Shown piece by piece: positions 13,634 to 45,690 of a stretch of DNA of 48,954 nt (within the stretch, counting starts at the first letter, position 1; the number at the start of each line of letters is the position of its first letter). The position numbers were made by a program, and so were the translations under genes. The notes under the pieces were generated by a model. The model was not told where the DNA came from and made no database searches. It saw only the letters and a program-made list of their open reading frames with translations. Where the stretch lies: NCBI RefSeq assembly GCF_902805515.1, contig NZ_CADCTE010000061.1, forward strand, positions 1-48,954. Reading direction: 5' to 3'. Origin of the DNA: an uncultured Arthrobacter sp. GTDB lineage: Bacteria > Actinomycetota > Actinomycetes > Actinomycetales > Micrococcaceae.

Positions 13634-15108
13634 CGGCGGGCAAGCCACCGGCCGATGACGAGCGCCTTTCGCAGCTGTTCGATGAGGCAGCGCTGCCCGT
13701 GGCCCCGGAACTCCTCGGCGTGCTGGGGTGCGTGAAGAGCCTGGGGGACCGGCCGGTTCCCGCTCCGGGAGCGGACCTTCTTGCCTTTTTTGCTCCAGCG
13801 GATGCGCCGGACCGCGGACGCCGGAAGCGGCTGCGGGGTCCAATCATCGGCGGCACCCTCGCGGTGTCGATGGGCCTGGGCATGTCCGGCGTGGCCGCCG
13901 GGCCGGGCACCTTCGCGGACGACCTCGGCAGCGCGGTCCATTCCGTTCTGGGCGGGCAGGGCGGAACGGCGGCGGGCCCCGCAACCATTGACCCCGCGCA
14001 GCCGCCGTCTCCATCGGACCTGCAGGGCATCGCCGGGCCTCAGGGCGGCACGGCGTCCCAGGACGCTGCCGATCGAAGCGGATATGCCGGTGCGGCGGGG
14101 CAGACCGGGACGGAGGCGGCGGGAGTCATCGGGCAGACCGGCGCGGAAGCCGCAGGCACCGCGGGAGTGACTGGAGCCGCCGAACCAGAGGTTAAGTCGA
14201 CACGCCCCTCCTCCGGTGGAGCCGGTGGAACGGGCGCCGACCGGGAAGTCACCACCCCTGCAGCGGCGCCAGGCCGCCGGTCAGCGCCCGCGGCGGGGCA
14301 CCAGGGCAATTCCACCCCGGGGCCGAGACCAGCGAAATCCGGGCCGGCGAAGTCCGGGCCTGCGAAATCTGTGCCTGCGGAATCCGAGTCGGAATCCCGG
14401 CCTGCGGTTTCCCAGCCTGCGGAATCCACGCCGGCGGACCTGTTACCACCCGGGACGAAGCCGGCGGGAGGGAGCCCGTCGAAGCCCAAGCCGGCGAAGT
14501 CGAAGCCGGCCAAACCGCGGCCAGGTGTGCCCGAGAACGGACAAGGAGCCGGACGAGAAGCCGGAGTGGAGCCCGAGGCGCCCGGGGAGGCGCCGGAGTG
14601 GGTGCGGAAACGTCCGGCGCCGCCCGCGTCGAAGGAACCCGAGGCCGAAGTAGACCCGGGCGTCGATTACCAGGCGGTTCCGCAGACGCCGGCAGGACCG
14701 GAAAGCGGGAACGGGCCCGACATGGATACCGGGGCCCCGGACCCCGATTCACCGGAACCGTCAGAACCGGAGCCATCGGGCCGGGAAGTTCCGGGCTCGG
14801 ATACTTCGAGCACTGAAACTTTAGTCCCAAATACGTCAGGCCCGGAGCCGTCTACCGACGGGGTTTCAGCCCCCGCCGTTCTCGGAGGACCCTTGCCCCC
14901 GGCCGGGGATCCAGCAGAGCCGGAGCTGCCGCCGGATCCAGCGCTGCAGCCCCCGTCGCAGTCGCCGTCACCGCCCTCGCCCTCGCCGCTGTCAGGCGAG
15001 GACCTGCCGCTTCGAGGAGAGGACGCCGGTGTTGAACCCGGCGAGGTTCAGTCCACCGTGGAAGCGGGCGTGCTCGATCTTCAGGCAGCGGTCCATCACC
15101 ACCGATAG
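13630..15108 (+). CDS. One-TM protein with very long Pro/Gly/Ser-rich extracytoplasmic region, probable sigma-factor partner
   Basis: No domain family is recognised. The 492-residue protein has a cytosolic N-terminus of about 65 residues (DDERLSQLFDEAALPVAP), a basic stop RGRRKRLR, and one hydrophobic span (about 70-91). Some 400 residues of low-complexity sequence follow. These are Thr/Gly-rich first (QTGTEAAGVIGQTGAEAAG), then short KSGPAKSGPAKS and KPKPAKSKPAKPRP repeats, then an acidic Pro/Glu-rich tail. The coupled ATGA overlap with the ECF sigma gene and the inside-out topology suggest an anti-sigma or surface-sensing role, as inference only. Its last 117 bp run antisense through the CoA-binding protein gene, so the true C-terminus needs support. 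Confidence 0.6.
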   Translation: MTAGKPPADDERLSQLFDEAALPVAPELLGVLGCVKSLGDRPVPAPGADLLAFFAPADAPDRGRRKRLRGPIIGGTLAVSMGLGMSGVAAGPGTFADDLGSAVHSVLGGQGGTAAGPATIDPAQPPSPSDLQGIAGPQGGTASQDAADRSGYAGAAGQTGTEAAGVIGQTGAEAAGTAGVTGAAEPEVKSTRPSSGGAGGTGADREVTTPAAAPGRRSAPAAGHQGNSTPGPRPAKSGPAKSGPAKSVPAESESESRPAVSQPAESTPADLLPPGTKPAGGSPSKPKPAKSKPAKPRPGVPENGQGAGREAGVEPEAPGEAPEWVRKRPAPPASKEPEAEVDPGVDYQAVPQTPAGPESGNGPDMDTGAPDPDSPEPSEPEPSGREVPGSDTSSTETLVPNTSGPEPSTDGVSAPAVLGGPLPPAGDPAEPELPPDPALQPPSQSPSPPSPSPLSGEDLPLRGEDAGVEPGEVQSTVEAGVLDLQAAVHHHR

Positions 15109-15486
15109 GCCAGCGCCCTCGGCCCGCCGGGCCACGTCCTCATGCCAGGACCCCAACTGCAGCCACAGCGTTTGAGCTCCGACGTCGAGGGTTTCCTCGA
15201 GCACGGAGGGGAGGTCGTCGTGCTTGCGGAAGACGTCGACCACATCGGGAACCTCCGGCAGGTCGGCAAGCGAGGCATACGCCGGCTGGCCGAGGATCTG
15301 CGTGGCCACGGGATTGACGAAGTACAGCCGGTAGGGCGACGAGGACTGAAGGTAGGCCGCCACAAAGTACGAGGCGCGCGAGGGCTTGTCCGAGGCCCCG
15401 ACGATCGCCACCGACTTCGTGCCGCGCAGCAGGGCCAGCCGCTCCGGTGCGGAGGGGCCTTCCCACGTCCGCTCTGCCGCGCTCAT
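14992..15486 (-). CDS. CoA-binding domain protein (YccU-like), partner of metY
   Basis: A 164-residue protein with a Rossmann-type CoA_binding_2 domain: SVAIVGASDKPSRASYFVAAYL at the nucleotide loop, FVNPVATQILGQPAYASLADLP, and ALSVVMDRCLKIEH-type sequence near the end. Relatives bind CoA, but their reaction is not established. Its ATG overlaps the metY stop (ATGA on the minus strand), so the two are translationally coupled. It is the last gene under the SAM-I-type leader at 18030-18129. A paralogue lies at 24779, divergent from the other SAM-controlled operon. The longer frame reading back to 15621 was rejected because it runs through metY coding sequence. Confidence 0.85.
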   Translation of the reverse strand: MSAAERTWEGPSAPERLALLRGTKSVAIVGASDKPSRASYFVAAYLQSSSPYRLYFVNPVATQILGQPAYASLADLPEVPDVVDVFRKHDDLPSVLEETLDVGAQTLWLQLGSWHEDVARRAEGAGLSVVMDRCLKIEHARFHGGLNLAGFNTGVLSSKRQVLA

Positions 15487-16868
15487 GCCCCGACTCCCAC
15501 TGCGCACGTCGGGGCCTGCCCGTCGGCGGAGTTCCCGGCGCCGCCCTCCGGAGGTACCTGCGGCAGGGTCACGGAGCCATCGCGCTCGACGGCTTCGGTC
15601 AGTGCCTGGTCGAGGTCCCACAGGATGTCCTCGAGGTCCTCAAGGCCCACCGAAATGCGGACCAGGTCCTCCGGGATGCCCGCCGCGGCGAGCTGCTCGG
15701 GCGAGAGCTGCTGGTGGGTCGTCGACCCGGGGTGGATCACGAGCGTGCGCGAGTCCCCAACGTTCGCCAGGTGCGAGGCGAGCTGCAGCGCCTCGATGAA
15801 CCGCTGGCCGGCTTCGCGGCCGCCGCGGATTCCGAAGCTGAACACCGATCCCGGCCCCTGGGGCAGGTACCTTCCCGCCCGCCCGTGGTGCGGGTGGCTG
15901 GGCAGCCCGGCGTAGTTGACGTAGGCGACGCGCGGGTCGGCCTGCAGCCATTCGGCGACGGCCTTGGCGTTCTTCAGGTGCTCATCGAGCCGCTGGGCAA
16001 GGGTTTCGACACCCTGCAGCAGCTGGAAGGCCGACTGCGGCGACAGCGACGGTCCGATGTCGCGCAGCTGCTCGGTGCGCAGCTTGGTGAGGAAGCCGTA
16101 TTCACCGAAGTTTGCCCACCACTGGATGTTCCCATAGGAGGGAACGGGCTCGGTCATGCCCGGGAACTTGCCGTTGCCCCAGTTGAACCTCCCGCTCTCG
16201 ACGACGACACCGCCAAGGGTCGTCCCGTGGCCGCCGATGAACTTGGTGGCCGAGTGGATCACGATGTCCGCGCCGTGCTCGATGGGCCGGATCAGGTAGG
16301 GGGTGCTGAGGGTGGAATCGATGATCAGCGGCACCCCTGCGTCGTGGGCCACCGCCGCGAGGCCCTCGAGGTCGGCTATTTCGCCGGAGGGGTTGGCGAT
16401 GACCTCCGCATAGACGGCCTTCGTGTTCGGCCGAATGGCGGCCGCATAGTCGGCCGGATCCGTCCCCGGAACGAAAGTGGTGTCGATACCGAAGCGCCGC
16501 AGCGTGACGTCGAGCTGGGTCACGGTTCCGCCGTACAGCTGGGAGGCGGCGACGATGTGGTCACCGGCCTGGCACAGCGCGGCGAAGGTGATGAACTCGG
16601 CGCTCATGCCCGACGCCGTCGCCACCGCGCCGATGCCGCCCTCGAGGGAGGCGATGCGCTCCTCGAACGCCGCAACCGTGGGGTTGCCGATCCGGGAGTA
16701 GATATTGCCGTACTTCTGCAGCGCGAAGAGGCTGGCGGCGTCGTTGGTGTCCTTGAAGACGAACGACGTCGTCTGGTAGATGGGGACGGCGCGGGCGCCG
16801 TGCGCCGCGTCGGGGGTCCCGCCGGCGTGGAGCGCCCGGGTCCGGAATCCAAAAGTTCGCTCGGCCAT
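15483..16868 (-). CDS. metY: O-acetylhomoserine sulfhydrylase (aminocarboxypropyltransferase)
   Basis: A PLP enzyme that joins O-acetylhomoserine with sulfide (or methanethiol) to give homocysteine (or methionine). The 461-residue protein of the Cys/Met-metabolism transsulfuration family carries [34 protein letters not shown], the PLP-contacting [11 protein letters not shown], and [12 protein letters not shown] with the Schiff-base Lys K209. The usual DNTFATP is DSTLSTP here. ATG 16868 shares its A with the sfnG stop (TGATG), so translation is coupled; an in-frame extension to 17144 was discarded because it overlaps sfnG. It is second in the riboswitch-led operon sfnG-metY-CoA-binding protein, which suits control by SAM supply. 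Confidence 0.94.
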
Positions 16869-18022
16869 CAGAGCCCTGCTTTCACGGTTGAGGGGGTGGG
16901 GAGGTGGAAGTCGACGCCGGCCCGGTCCGCGAGGTCCGCCTCGAGGGAGCGGACGATCGGCAGGACATCCCGGCCGAACGCCTCGACCTCCTCCTGGAAG
17001 TGCAGGTAGCAGGTGAGCATCAGGTTCACGCCCAGCTTTTTGTATTCGATGATCCGCTCGGCGATCTGCTCGGGCGTGCCGATCAGCTGGGTGCGGAAGC
17101 CGTCGTTGTACTGGATGAGGTCCTCGAAGCTGGAGTCCGCCCACATGCCCTTGCCGTCCCGGGTGGCCGGTCCGGCCTCCTGGACCGCGTCCCGGAACCC
17201 TTCAACGGCCGGCCGGTGCGCCTTGGCGACGATTTCGCGGAGGGTCTCGCGGGCCTCCTTCTCGGAGTCCCGGGCGATCACAAACCCGTTGAGGCCGAAG
17301 CGCGGGTGCCGCCCGGCGGACGAGGCCGAGGCCCGCACGCCGGCGATGTTCTCCCGGAAGCCCTCGAGGTCCTTGCCGTTGGAGAAGTACCAGTCGGCCA
17401 CCCGGCCGGCGGTGGCCTGCGCCGCCGTCGAGTTTCCGCCGAAGAAGATCTCGGGGTGCGCCCGTCCGGGCACCTCGACCGGCGGCGGGCTCAGCGTGAA
17501 GTCGGTGATGTTGTAGTACTTTCCGGCCTGGCTGTAGCGCTCCTGGGTCCACAGGCCGCGCAGCACGCGGATGAACTCCTCCGTCCGCACGTACCGTTCA
17601 TCGTGCTCCAGCCAGGGGAGTCCGAAGCCGGTGAACTCGCTCTTCAGCCAGCCCGAGACGATATTGACCGCAGCCCTGCCGTTGGAGATGACGTCGGCGG
17701 TGATGATGAACTTCGCGAGCACCCCCGGATGCCACATGCCCGGGTGGACGGCCGCAATGACCTTGAGCTTCTCCGTCGCCGCGAGCAGGGCCAGGGAGAA
17801 GGCCGTGGCCTCGTGCTGCTTGTCGGCACCGTAGGACGCCGCATACCGGGTCTGGGACAGCGCGTACTCGAATCCGGCGTCCTCGGCGATGCGCGCAAGT
17901 TTCCGGTTGTACTCAAAGTCCCAGCCGGTGCGCTGTTCGATCGTTGAGACGACAAGCCCGCCGCTCACGTTCGGCACCCAGTAGGCGAACTTCAGGGGTT
18001 GCGAAAAATCGGCAGTGCTCAC
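16868..18022 (-). CDS. sfnG: Dimethylsulfone monooxygenase, FMNH2-dependent (SfnG)
   Basis: Cleaves dimethylsulfone using FMNH2 and O2, giving methanesulfinate and formaldehyde, so methylated sulfones can feed sulfur assimilation. The 384-residue LLM-class flavin monooxygenase matches SfnG closely. It starts with KFAYWVPNVSGGLVVSTIEQ and continues with AVHPGMWHP, NIVSGWLKSEF, PWLEHDERYVRTEEFIR, FFGGNSTAAQA and SSFEDLIQYNDGFRTQLIGT. GTG 18022 follows the ribosome site GGAGGAAT, which abuts the P1 helix of the SAM-I-type leader. Such enzymes need a separate NADH:FMN reductase, not found in this window. The neighbours metY and CoA-binding protein support a sulfur role. Confidence 0.9.
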   Translation of the reverse strand: MSTADFSQPLKFAYWVPNVSGGLVVSTIEQRTGWDFEYNRKLARIAEDAGFEYALSQTRYAASYGADKQHEATAFSLALLAATEKLKVIAAVHPGMWHPGVLAKFIITADVISNGRAAVNIVSGWLKSEFTGFGLPWLEHDERYVRTEEFIRVLRGLWTQERYSQAGKYYNITDFTLSPPPVEVPGRAHPEIFFGGNSTAAQATAGRVADWYFSNGKDLEGFRENIAGVRASASSAGRHPRFGLNGFVIARDSEKEARETLREIVAKAHRPAVEGFRDAVQEAGPATRDGKGMWADSSFEDLIQYNDGFRTQLIGTPEQIAERIIEYKKLGVNLMLTCYLHFQEEVEAFGRDVLPIVRSLEADLADRAGVDFHLPTPSTVKAGL

Positions 18023-18029
18023 TATTCCT

Positions 18030-18129
18030 CCATCGATTCTGGCGGTAGCACCCTACTGTCAGCGCTGGAGGCGCTGGCCAGGGTTGCTGCGGCGTCATAG
18101 AGCCAGATCTCTCGGCCGCTCGGGATGGT
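18030..18129 (-). ncRNA. SAM-I-type (S-box) riboswitch upstream of sfnG-metY
   Basis: On the minus strand the conserved order is P1 CCATC, GAGCGGCCGAGAGATCTGG (P2 with kink-turn), TATGACGCCGCAGCAACCC, a short P3, then AGGGTGCTA, CCGCCAGA and P1' GATGG. The GCAACC...GGTGC core and the GAG...GA...TGA kink-turn are S-box hallmarks; SAM-IV lacks the kink-turn. P1' GATGG runs straight into the ribosome site (GATGGAGGAAT), seven bases before GTG 18022. No terminator hairpin fits between aptamer and start, so SAM binding should hide the ribosome site and repress translation. Confidence 0.88.
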
Positions 18130-18137
18130 TCCCCCCG

Positions 18138-18167
18138 AGTGTGACAGGGACGCGGCGTAGGAACCAA
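18138..18167 (-). promoter_or_regulatory. Candidate promoter of the sfnG riboswitch transcript
   Basis: On the minus strand TTGGTT (18167-18162) and CACACT (18143-18138) have an 18-bp spacer, and would start transcription around 18131, at the first base of the riboswitch fold. Confidence 0.4.
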
Positions 18168-18238
18168 GAAATGTGTCGTTGCGGGTCGCGGCATTGCAGG
18201 TAAGGTTTGCTCACGCGGACGATTCGAAGGAGCTGCCG

Positions 18239-19333
18239 GTGGAATTACGCAGGCTGGGGCTCGTGGTGCACGGGGGCAAGCGACGGGCCATCGAGGCGGC
18301 TCAAGGGCTGACGGCTTGGGCCGGCGAGCACGGCATCGACGTCGCCGAGATCGACGTCTGGTCCCCGGACGAACACGGACACTTACGGATTGAGCACTCC
18401 CCGCCCGGCACGTTCGACCTCGTCGTCACGATCGGCGGCGACGGGACGTTCCTGCGCGGGGTCGCGGTGGCTCAGGCCTCGAACTCCCCGATCCTCGGCG
18501 TCAACGTGGGCCGGGTGGGCTTCCTCACCGAGGTGGAACCGGAACACCTGATCGAAGCCCTGAACGCGGTCATGGCGAACGAGGCACTCGAAGAGCATCG
18601 CCTCACCCTCACCATGCGCTCAAGCCGGCCGCTGCGGATCCCCAAGGAACTCGGGGCGCTGCTCCACTATGAGCGGGGGCCGACGACGGAGCCGCCCGAG
18701 GTCCGCGCCGACGCCGCCCAGGAGACCGGCTGGGGCATCGGCATGGACGTCACCGCACTCAATGACGTCGTGTTCGAAAAACTGACCCGCGACCGGCAGG
18801 CGAGCGTGGCGGTCTACGTCGGGTCCCGCCATTTCGTCTCCTACTCGGCCGATGCGCTCATCATCGCCACGCCCACCGGTTCGACCGCCTATTCCTTCGC
18901 GGCGGGAGGCCCGGTGGTGTCGCCCCGGGCCCAGGTCCTGGTGTTCACCCCGGTCGCCGCGCACATGGTCTTCGACCGGAGCCTGATCGTCGCCGCCGAT
19001 GAGCTGGTCTCGGTGCGGGTGCTCGAGCGCAGCGGACAGGTCTCGATGTCCATCGACGGCCGGATCGTCGGAGTCCTCGACCCGGGGGACTGGGTGTCGG
19101 TCTACGCCCGGCCCACGGAGGTGCGGATGCTCCGGCTTCAGGAACCCGACTTTTTCGGCCGGGTCCGGGACCGGTTCGGCCTCGTCGACGCAGCCGCCGC
19201 GGCCGCCGACGGCGATTCGCCCGTGGCGCACATCCCCAGCACGCCCAAACCCGACGACATGAAACACGTGCACATCCCCACCCCGGCCCTTGAGGCGTGG
19301 ACGTGGCCGCGGGCGGAGCCGCTGGACCGCTAG
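18239..19333 (+). CDS. nadK: NAD kinase
   Basis: Phosphorylates NAD to NADP in the cytosol. The 364-residue length is on the long side; the extra length is a C-terminal Ala/Pro-rich tail after residue 325 or so. Visible motifs are the ATP-binding TIGGDGTFLR (GGDGT at 66-70), NVGRVGFLTEVEP, ALNDVVFEK and PTGSTAYSFAAGGPVVSP, all diagnostic of ATP-NAD kinases. GTG 18239 was chosen because GAAGGAG sits six bases before it; upstream frame to 18173 lacks family sequence. It is divergent from sfnG. In many actinobacteria this gene neighbours tlyA and recN, but neither is present here. Confidence 0.92.
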   Translation: MELRRLGLVVHGGKRRAIEAAQGLTAWAGEHGIDVAEIDVWSPDEHGHLRIEHSPPGTFDLVVTIGGDGTFLRGVAVAQASNSPILGVNVGRVGFLTEVEPEHLIEALNAVMANEALEEHRLTLTMRSSRPLRIPKELGALLHYERGPTTEPPEVRADAAQETGWGIGMDVTALNDVVFEKLTRDRQASVAVYVGSRHFVSYSADALIIATPTGSTAYSFAAGGPVVSPRAQVLVFTPVAAHMVFDRSLIVAADELVSVRVLERSGQVSMSIDGRIVGVLDPGDWVSVYARPTEVRMLRLQEPDFFGRVRDRFGLVDAAAAAADGDSPVAHIPSTPKPDDMKHVHIPTPALEAWTWPRAEPLDR

Positions 19334-23655: not shown

Positions 23656-24468
23656 TCAGTGCGCGGCGACGCCGAGCAGGGTGAGCAGGTGCCGGCGCAG
23701 CTCCGCCAGTTCGCGGGAGCTGCGGTCGCGGGGCCGCGCCCCGGGGACGGGGATCAGGTCCTTAACCGTTGACCCCGGCCCATCGCCGCTGCTGCCGAGC
23801 ACGAGGATGCGGTCGGCGAGCTGGAGCGCCTCGTCGACGTCGTGGGTCACCAGCAGCACCGTGGTGGGCTGCGCCGCGTGGATCTCCAGGAGCAGGTCCT
23901 GCATCTTGAGGCGGGTCAGCGCGTCGAGGGCGCCGAAGGGTTCATCGAGCAGCAGGACGCCGGGGGTGCGGGCCAGGGCGCGAGCGAGAGAGGCCCGCTG
24001 GGCCATTCCCCCGGAGACCTCGCGGGGACGGTGCTTGGCGAAGCGGTCGAGGCCCACAAGTTTCAGCAGTTCGGCGACCTTGGCCTTGCCGGCGCTCGCA
24101 CTCGAGGACTTGGGCAGGCCAATGGCGACATTGGCCTGCAGCGTATGCCAGGGCAGCAGGCGGGGTTCCTGGAAGGCAACGGCGCAGCGCTCGTCGATGC
24201 CGCGGACTTCGGTGCCATCGATCAGCACGCTGCCCGCGTCGGGGGTGTCGAGGCCCGCAGCGGCACGCAGGAGCGTTGATTTCCCGCAGCCGCTGGTGCC
24301 GAGGATGGCGAGGACTTCACCGGGCCGGATGTCCACGGTGACGTCCCGCAGCACCACCCGCCGGTCGCTTGAGGTGCCGAAACTGCGCCCCAGGCGGCTG
24401 AAGCTCACCTGAAGGGGCGGCCTGCGGCGCGGGTCGGCGGTTGTCGAAGATGCCAGAACAGCAGTCAT
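23656..24468 (-). CDS. ssuB: Sulfonate-type ABC transporter ATPase
   Basis: Energises uptake by SsuC. The 270-residue single ABC domain carries Walker A GTSGCGKST, Q-loop AVAFQEPRLLPW, signature VSGGMAQR, Walker B LLLDEPFGALD and the switch His in LLVTHDVDEAL, all characteristic of the nitrate/sulfonate/taurine group. ATG 24468 was chosen; an in-frame ATG at 24480 lies inside the riboswitch P1 stem, and the ribosome site GGAGA (24478-24474) fits 24468. It is the first gene behind the second SAM-I-type leader, ahead of ssuA, ssuC and acs. Confidence 0.92.
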   Translation of the reverse strand: MTAVLASSTTADPRRRPPLQVSFSRLGRSFGTSSDRRVVLRDVTVDIRPGEVLAILGTSGCGKSTLLRAAAGLDTPDAGSVLIDGTEVRGIDERCAVAFQEPRLLPWHTLQANVAIGLPKSSSASAGKAKVAELLKLVGLDRFAKHRPREVSGGMAQRASLARALARTPGVLLLDEPFGALDALTRLKMQDLLLEIHAAQPTTVLLVTHDVDEALQLADRILVLGSSGDGPGSTVKDLIPVPGARPRDRSSRELAELRRHLLTLLGVAAH

Positions 24469-45531: not shown

Positions 45532-45596
45532 GGTCTAGCTCCCTCGCCGCATTCCCTGCCAAGGGGTCGGCCCATCCAGCCGACGGTTAAAGTAAA

Positions 45597-45683
45597 GACC
45601 CCCCATGCACCTGCCAGAGCCCGCTTACCCTTGCTACCTTCCGGTCCTGGGGGAGTTCACAGGATGACACCACATGAGGGGCC
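45597..45683 (-). ncRNA. ffs: Small signal recognition particle RNA (4.5S type)
   Basis: On the minus strand the SRP domain IV is clear: TGTGAACTCCCCCAGG, CCGGAAGGTAGCAAGGGTAA (the GGAA tetraloop and Ffh-binding internal loop), then GGCTCTGGCAGGTGC. The ends pair over 11 bp (GGCCCCTCATG with CATGGGGGGTC). The length, about 87 nt, is that of the short bacterial form without the Alu domain. A -10-like TAGACT lies seven bases before the 5' end, at 45691-45696. TTTACTTT follows the 3' end. Exact ends may shift by a few bases. Confidence 0.95.
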
Positions 45684-45690
45684 GGGAAAT

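Follow-up and report, generated by a model that had tools for sequence, protein, structure and literature searches.

A compact P4-less SAM-I-type riboswitch that probably locks the ribosome site of the dimethylsulfone monooxygenase gene sfnG in Arthrobacter

We suggest that a compact SAM-I-type riboswitch without the P4 helix, serving as its own expression platform, directly locks the ribosome site of the sfnG gene in an uncultured soil Arthrobacter sp., a reading that the arrangement of the sequence makes highly probable. The window, i.e., the whole stretch of DNA analyzed, has 48,954 nucleotides. On its minus strand sfnG (16868-18022, GTG start), encoding dimethylsulfone monooxygenase (NCBIfam TIGR04021, 621 bits against a cut-off of 383), is followed by the gene for a metY-type O-acetylhomoserine sulfhydrylase (15483-16868; TIGR01326, 599 bits against a cut-off of 495) and by a gene for a CoA-binding domain protein (14992-15486; PF13380), the likely start of which was assigned by reading. 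The metY start overlaps the sfnG stop as TGATG, and the likely start of the third gene overlaps the metY stop as ATGA. The overlap of the sfnG stop and the metY start was detected in 22 of 23 loci of the genus, the exception being L084, where the metY motif was not found. In pseudomonads SfnG converts dimethyl sulfone to methanesulfinate, according to the accessible part of PMC8234197, whose reference list includes a dimethylsulfone-growing Arthrobacter.

The Rfam SAM-I model (RF00162) matched positions 18131-18027 of the minus strand (cmscan of the window, 48.7 bits against the gathering threshold of 44.4, E 3.2e-8). No second Rfam family was found at the aptamer at E up to 1, with the best match per clan kept. 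The sequence-only reading had proposed an S-box aptamer on this strand with P1, a kink-turn P2, GCAACC and GGTGC, to be checked with Infernal and RF00162; all of these parts were found, and the match lies at the site. The aptamer extends over 99 nt from CCATC, the 5' arm of P1 (18128-18124), to GATGG, its 3' arm (18034-18030). P1 is 5 bp long, since the flanking A18129 and A18029 form no standard pair, and two of its pairs, U-A in the Rfam consensus, are C-G here. P2 has a kink-turn-like internal loop, as judged by eye in the Rfam alignment, and the P2 loop carries CTGG (18106-18103), one side of PK-1. The other side, CCAG (18042-18039), lies in the linker from P3 to P1, where by alignment and spacing a P4 hairpin would not fit. 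The SAM-binding core includes GCAACC on the 5' side of P3 (18087-18082) and GGTGC on its 3' side (18052-18048), assigned from the sequence and the Rfam alignment. The core bases (A6/U7 of P1, G11, GCAAC and GGUGC of P3) are present, and their columns are invariant in 50 chosen elements of the family. By inspection, with the numbering mapped by us, the highly conserved SAM-I residues listed in the accessible part of PMC3764141 are all here except U4, which is replaced by C. On these sequence grounds the element is a SAM-I-type aptamer, and SAM binding itself is predicted.

The 3' arm of P1 runs directly into the Shine-Dalgarno sequence GGAGG (18031-18027), so that GG at 18031-18030 is common to both. 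AGGAATA (18029-18023) follows GATGG and leads to the GTG start (18022-18020). The distance from the end of P1 to the start is exactly seven bases, inside the limit of 15 nt for direct translational SAM-I switches. Both the sharing of the first two Shine-Dalgarno bases with P1 and the seven-base spacing had been read correctly from the sequence beforehand.

The arrangement is conserved in the genus. With a presence threshold of E at most 1e-120, sfnG was detected in 23 of 38 genus genomes and in 111 of 395 genomes of the family, the family set being a sample of a larger group. The aptamer stands directly 5' of sfnG in all 23 genus loci, and GATGGAGGA, which spans the shared bases, is kept in each of them. 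The spacing from GATGG to the start is 7 nt in 4 loci, 8 nt in 16 and 9 nt in 3; one of the 8-nt loci also has an ATG at 5 nt. Because 23 of 23 loci keep both the aptamer and the start, the arrangement is not due to chance. Four genus genomes with no sfnG match (L061, L062, L065, L122) have the aptamer directly before metY. A consensus scan of 17900-18260 found no terminator-like (intrinsic) site. This result, together with the geometry in 23/23 loci, supports the direct hiding of the ribosome site that the sequence-only reading had drawn from the geometry.

We propose that at high SAM level P1 would close, GGAGG would become unusable by the ribosome and sfnG translation would drop, while metY and the third gene would fall with sfnG through translational coupling. 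At low SAM level the weak P1 would open and the ribosome would enter. The cell would then use dimethyl sulfone sulfur and make homocysteine only if SAM, the downstream product of sulfur assimilation, is short. From the position of the aptamer we infer that sfnG would be under SAM control; SAM binding, ribosome exclusion and translational coupling are likewise predicted steps.

Energy modelling was used to evaluate this scheme. The modelled gain of P1 closing on the folded aptamer is -3.4 kcal/mol and the duplex of the Shine-Dalgarno with the anti-Shine-Dalgarno is worth -9.5 kcal/mol, both being nearest-neighbour values that leave out PK-1 and the ligand; P1 should therefore need help from the ligand. 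In ligand-free folds of the 23 leaders the P1 probability is 0-0.34. The simplest reading of the modelled values would be a weak P1 held shut by SAM. The same ligand-free folds pair the Shine-Dalgarno elsewhere in many of the 23 leaders, so the energy model does not reproduce an open ON state. A conserved antisequestor was considered and rejected, as the Shine-Dalgarno has no common partner in the ligand-free folds of these leaders.

The aptamer could also act mainly at the transcript level, where SAM closes P1, ribosomes no longer load, and Rho or RNases end the message. We regard this as possible, although rather unlikely. The direct geometry of P1 and ribosome site fits it too, the leader is without an intrinsic terminator, and the overlap of sfnG, metY and the third gene makes polarity plausible. 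Its first step is, however, the same as in the ribosome-site lock that we prefer, and the later steps alone differ.

In 22 of the 23 sfnG leaders a TGTCA[CG]ACT block (window 18138-18146, minus strand) lies upstream of the aptamer, its end 8-9 nt from P1; the L071 leader has TGCCACACT in its place. A TTGG-containing block is located further upstream in most of the 23 leaders. By eye, the TGTCA[CG]ACT block might be a -10 region, the two blocks possibly forming the promoter, with the transcript start adjoining P1, a suggestion that we hold weakly. A consensus scan of 17900-18260 found no sigma-70-type promoter. Divergent from sfnG, an NAD-kinase-like gene (window 18173-19333, plus strand) is predicted to begin about 40 nt from the aptamer; its best NCBIfam NAD kinase score is 181 bits, below the curated cut-off of 299. 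For the use of dimethyl sulfone, pseudomonads have the SfnR activator. The accessible part of PMC8234197 places sfnR near msu genes and cites a sigma54-dependent regulator.

RF00162 matches at E up to 1e-3 were found in 311 of 395 family genomes and in 35 of 38 genus genomes. A motif scan demanding ATC and GATGG gave 154 distinct elements from loci L001-L236, a sample that mixes two collections in which only identical cores were merged. An ATG or GTG opening a frame of at least 80 codons lies within 12 nt in 99 of the 154 (the direct elements), and in 95 of these 99 the start is at 7-10 nt. GGAG across the P1 end together with a start within 12 nt was found in 94/154 elements (94/99 direct). 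A further 38/154 have GATGGAG with no qualifying start, and at least three of these (L098, L106, L127) have an ATG nearby and were excluded only by the end of the retrieved sequence. The retention of GATGGAG in related aptamers with no close start codon was absent from the sequence-only reading, and in view of the 38 elements it may be the aptamer that requires this sequence.

These counts bear on a reading in which P1 and the Shine-Dalgarno overlap incidentally: the aptamer ends in GATGGAG anyway, a nearby start is chance, and control is elsewhere or the element is a relic. The 38 elements with GATGGAG and no qualifying start, some of which have sequence ending early, agree with it, as does a P1 that is identical whatever the gene distance. 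The narrow start spacing of the direct elements speaks against it. So do GGAGG in 23/23 sfnG leaders, as against the GGAGA common in distal elements, and the position of the element before different first genes (sfnG, metY, ssuB-like). We therefore consider an incidental overlap improbable.

Other arrangements were detected in the same sample. In six elements AAAGGA or AAAGGC lies just outside P1, with the start at 13-15 nt. The aptamers L183:15066-15175, L215:903-1021 and L217:972-1090 precede a gene whose product begins MS.NTDHIRVTHAGSLPR; here AAAGGA lies just outside P1 and the start 14 nt on, and the ribosome site adjoins P1 with no overlap. In L009, L010, L025, L049, L212, L215 and similar elements, the aptamer has GATGGAGA and the start codon is tens of bases or more away. 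In some elements of this type the aptamer is followed by a GTTGGT-like stretch, a possible competitor for the 5' arm of P1. These observations suggest a different expression platform for this type.

The loss of P4, which the sequence-only reading did not contain, extends over the family. The gap from GGTGCTA to GATGG is 10-12 nt in 153 of the 154 elements, the exception being L034. Measured with no motif filter, GGTGC and the match end are 20-22 nt apart in 28 of 30 family loci and in 29 of 29 genus loci, whereas they are 32-81 nt apart in 25 of the 26 measurable phylum loci (of 30). Since these distances differ, the P4-less form appears confined to this family in comparison with the other SAM-I elements of the phylum sample. 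The element is filed as a P4-less variant and not as a canonical SAM-I, because its linker has no P4 helix. The same loss could be taken to mean that the aptamer no longer senses SAM or has another ligand, P4 being gone and the outer P1 pairs being off consensus (the two C-G pairs above). This is very unlikely. P3 and J1/2 retain their core bases, the targets seen are sulfur and methionine genes, and SAM-IV, which is also without P4, was solved with SAM bound, according to the accessible part of PMC6890682.

An alignment of 50 sequences, a hand choice among the 154 elements and all of the shorter kind, shows pairing in 97.4% of cells. P2a covaries at two pairs, and PK-1 pairs in 50/50 and hardly varies. 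Three pairs changed on both sides; further pair types are not above shuffles, and the covariation score of 0.033 compares with higher scores of 0.055 and 0.042 in the controls slid by -3 and +2. As the covariation is weak, the fold is supported mainly by the Rfam model and less by this alignment. P1 is invariant in this alignment and in the 36-sequence alignment described below, and the scan itself demanded ATC and GATGG, so that P1 covariation within the family is uninformative. The lone P1 variation within the family is CCATT/AATGG in L033, which shows that the motif scan loses true members. In the phylum sample, 145 of 296 genomes match RF00162 at E up to 1e-4, and by inspection of the best 30 loci P1 varies yet stays complementary. 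The listed open frame in the phylum loci is mostly tens of bases from the aptamer. A frame listed within 15 nt was found in 4 of 27 readable rows (L239, L248, L249, L250), and these were judged spurious because no Shine-Dalgarno overlaps P1.

A second SAM-I aptamer, also absent from the sequence-only reading, was detected in the window at 24644-24474 (minus strand; 42.5 bits, below the RF00162 gathering threshold) and carries a long structured insert in P3. No other Rfam family matched it at E up to 1. Its P1 and PK-1 are the same as in the sfnG aptamer, and an ATG follows 8 nt after GATGG, opening an ssuB-like ABC transporter ATPase gene (23656-24468, minus strand; best NCBIfam matches below cut-offs). 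Other insert-bearing members precede an ssuB-like gene too, as judged from N-termini alone. Of the 52 elements of at least 125 nt, 36 were aligned, drawn from Arthrobacter and further genera of the family; the other 16, namely two near-duplicates and 14 elements whose P3 insert is of another kind, were dropped before counting. The two helices of the P3 insert pair in 91.8% of cells across the 36 members, and both sides have changed in 59 cells, compared with 20.3 in shuffles and no more than 24 in slid controls. L155 and L156, members from another genus of the family, have no Rfam match at gathering level. The covarying P3 insert may be more unusual than the sfnG finding itself. Elsewhere in the window, a bacterial small SRP RNA was detected at 45591-45686 on the minus strand (RF00169, 69.1 bits).

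The relationship to known SAM riboswitches was analyzed. The SAM-I switches with direct P1 sequestration (Barrick and Breaker 2007, PMC2258182, in its accessible part) share with the sfnG element the core, the kink-turn and PK-1, as well as the ribosome site in the 3' side of P1, a start at most 15 nt from P1 and an actinobacterial host; in contrast to that class, the element here has no P4 and a 5-bp P1 of one sequence family-wide. The same part of the paper sets the precedent in SAM-I for this geometry, and sfnG was not found there as a target. The accessible part of a 2005 survey (PMC1262725) names the overlap of base stems with the start site as a trait of actinobacteria and describes no conserved RNA structure upstream of methionine operons there. 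With the direct mechanism already in print in these two papers, it is not new. The sequence-only reading had presented ribosome-site hiding as a departure from the termination for which S-box switches are best known; the hiding is supported, while its novelty does not hold in view of the accessible text of PMC2258182. The Xanthomonas SAM-I switch (PMC7270179, accessible part) likewise acts mainly on translation, which for sfnG is the predicted mode. It has a downstream hairpin with an anti-SD and responds to uncharged initiator tRNA; such a separate expression platform was not seen here.

SAM-IV (RF00634) and the present element are both without P4 and both have the SAM core, but SAM-IV PK-2 has no conserved counterpart here. 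Membership in SAM-IV was rejected: RF00634 gave no match at the site in a scan of the whole own genome, and pairing between the P3 loop and the Shine-Dalgarno is not conserved. The SAM-IV comparison proposed by the sequence-only reading left RF00162 as the matching class. The SAM-I/IV class (RF01725) shares the SAM clan core; its P2 has no internal loop (accessible part of PMC2864571), whereas the kink-turn loop of P2 is present here. SAM-I/IV membership was rejected as well, given this loop and no RF01725 match in the whole own genome at E up to 10. One strong RF00634 match (115 bits) was obtained elsewhere in the own genome, on a different contig. This SAM-IV riboswitch, L004:1501-1615 on contig C28, lies upstream of a metY-like gene, as assigned by reading. 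One genome thus appears to employ two classes of switch, SAM-IV and SAM-I, for two sulfhydrylase genes.

It is conceivable that the ribosome site is hidden by a second, SAM-IV-like pseudoknot between the P3 loop CCTCCA and TGGAGG. Six contiguous Watson-Crick pairs are available in the window and in L080, and five in L085. Six pairs occur in 0.6% of shuffled loops, so 2 of 23 exceeds expectation, and SAM-IV PK-2 joins a P3-side strand and the 3' end (accessible part of PMC6890682). On the other hand, no more than three contiguous pairs are available in 18 of 23 sfnG leaders, among them the two nearest relatives L068 (three) and L069 (two), the mean is 3.30 contiguous pairs against 2.83 in shuffles, and neither RF00634 nor RF01725 matched the site. 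We consider this pseudoknot very improbable as the lock in the window. As a general mechanism it was rejected, since it is not conserved among the 23 leaders.

A riboswitch on sfnG was not found in the literature searched, and neither was a P4-less SAM-I, most subscription papers being outside the reach of this search. The sole co-occurrence in the literature searched was in a long review (PMC11446756), where riboswitch and sfnG appear once each. As far as the literature was searched, three points are new: sfnG as a target, the absence of P4 throughout the family and the varied distances between aptamer and sfnG.

These distances were compared in the named sfnG loci, i.e., the best 80 of a longer list, by a motif scan that overlooks diverged aptamers. 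Among the contigs of named relatives in these best 80, the closest SfnG is that of Arthrobacter crusticola (97%), and A. agilis, A. bussei and A. ruber are among the strains that have other close ones. The nearest upstream aptamer core is at most 40 nt from sfnG in 11 of the best 80 and 79-168 nt upstream in 14 (Sinomonas, Tersicoccus, Specibacter, Zafaria, A. mangrovi and others). In 25 of the 80 the core is about 2-5 kb upstream, a distance that does not imply a shared operon. The motif scan found no upstream core in 30 of the 80, in five of which the sequence upstream is shorter than 5.5 kb. SAM-I aptamers occur at three different distances from sfnG among the relatives.

Taken together, these data lead to a hypothesis for the Micrococcaceae, which we offer tentatively and with less than even confidence. 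The family would have a reduced SAM-I branch in which P4 was lost and a fixed 5-bp P1 ending in GATGGAG provides a ready-made ribosome site, the aptamer being the whole switch. Such an element could be placed before any head of an organosulfur or methionine operon (sfnG, metY, ssuB-like), with a longer sfnG leader in sister genera, and the conserved, covarying P3 domain of the ssuB-like copies could serve as a second element for sensing or tuning. Because the basic mechanism is already in print, the surprise is modest. The sfnG gene is seen with a direct lock of P1 and ribosome site, with an aptamer and a longer leader, and with no nearby aptamer, and this series would allow a test of the loss or gain of the expression platform with the sensor held constant. 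For the physiology of Arthrobacter, the arrangement suggests that the SAM level sets the use of dimethyl sulfone.
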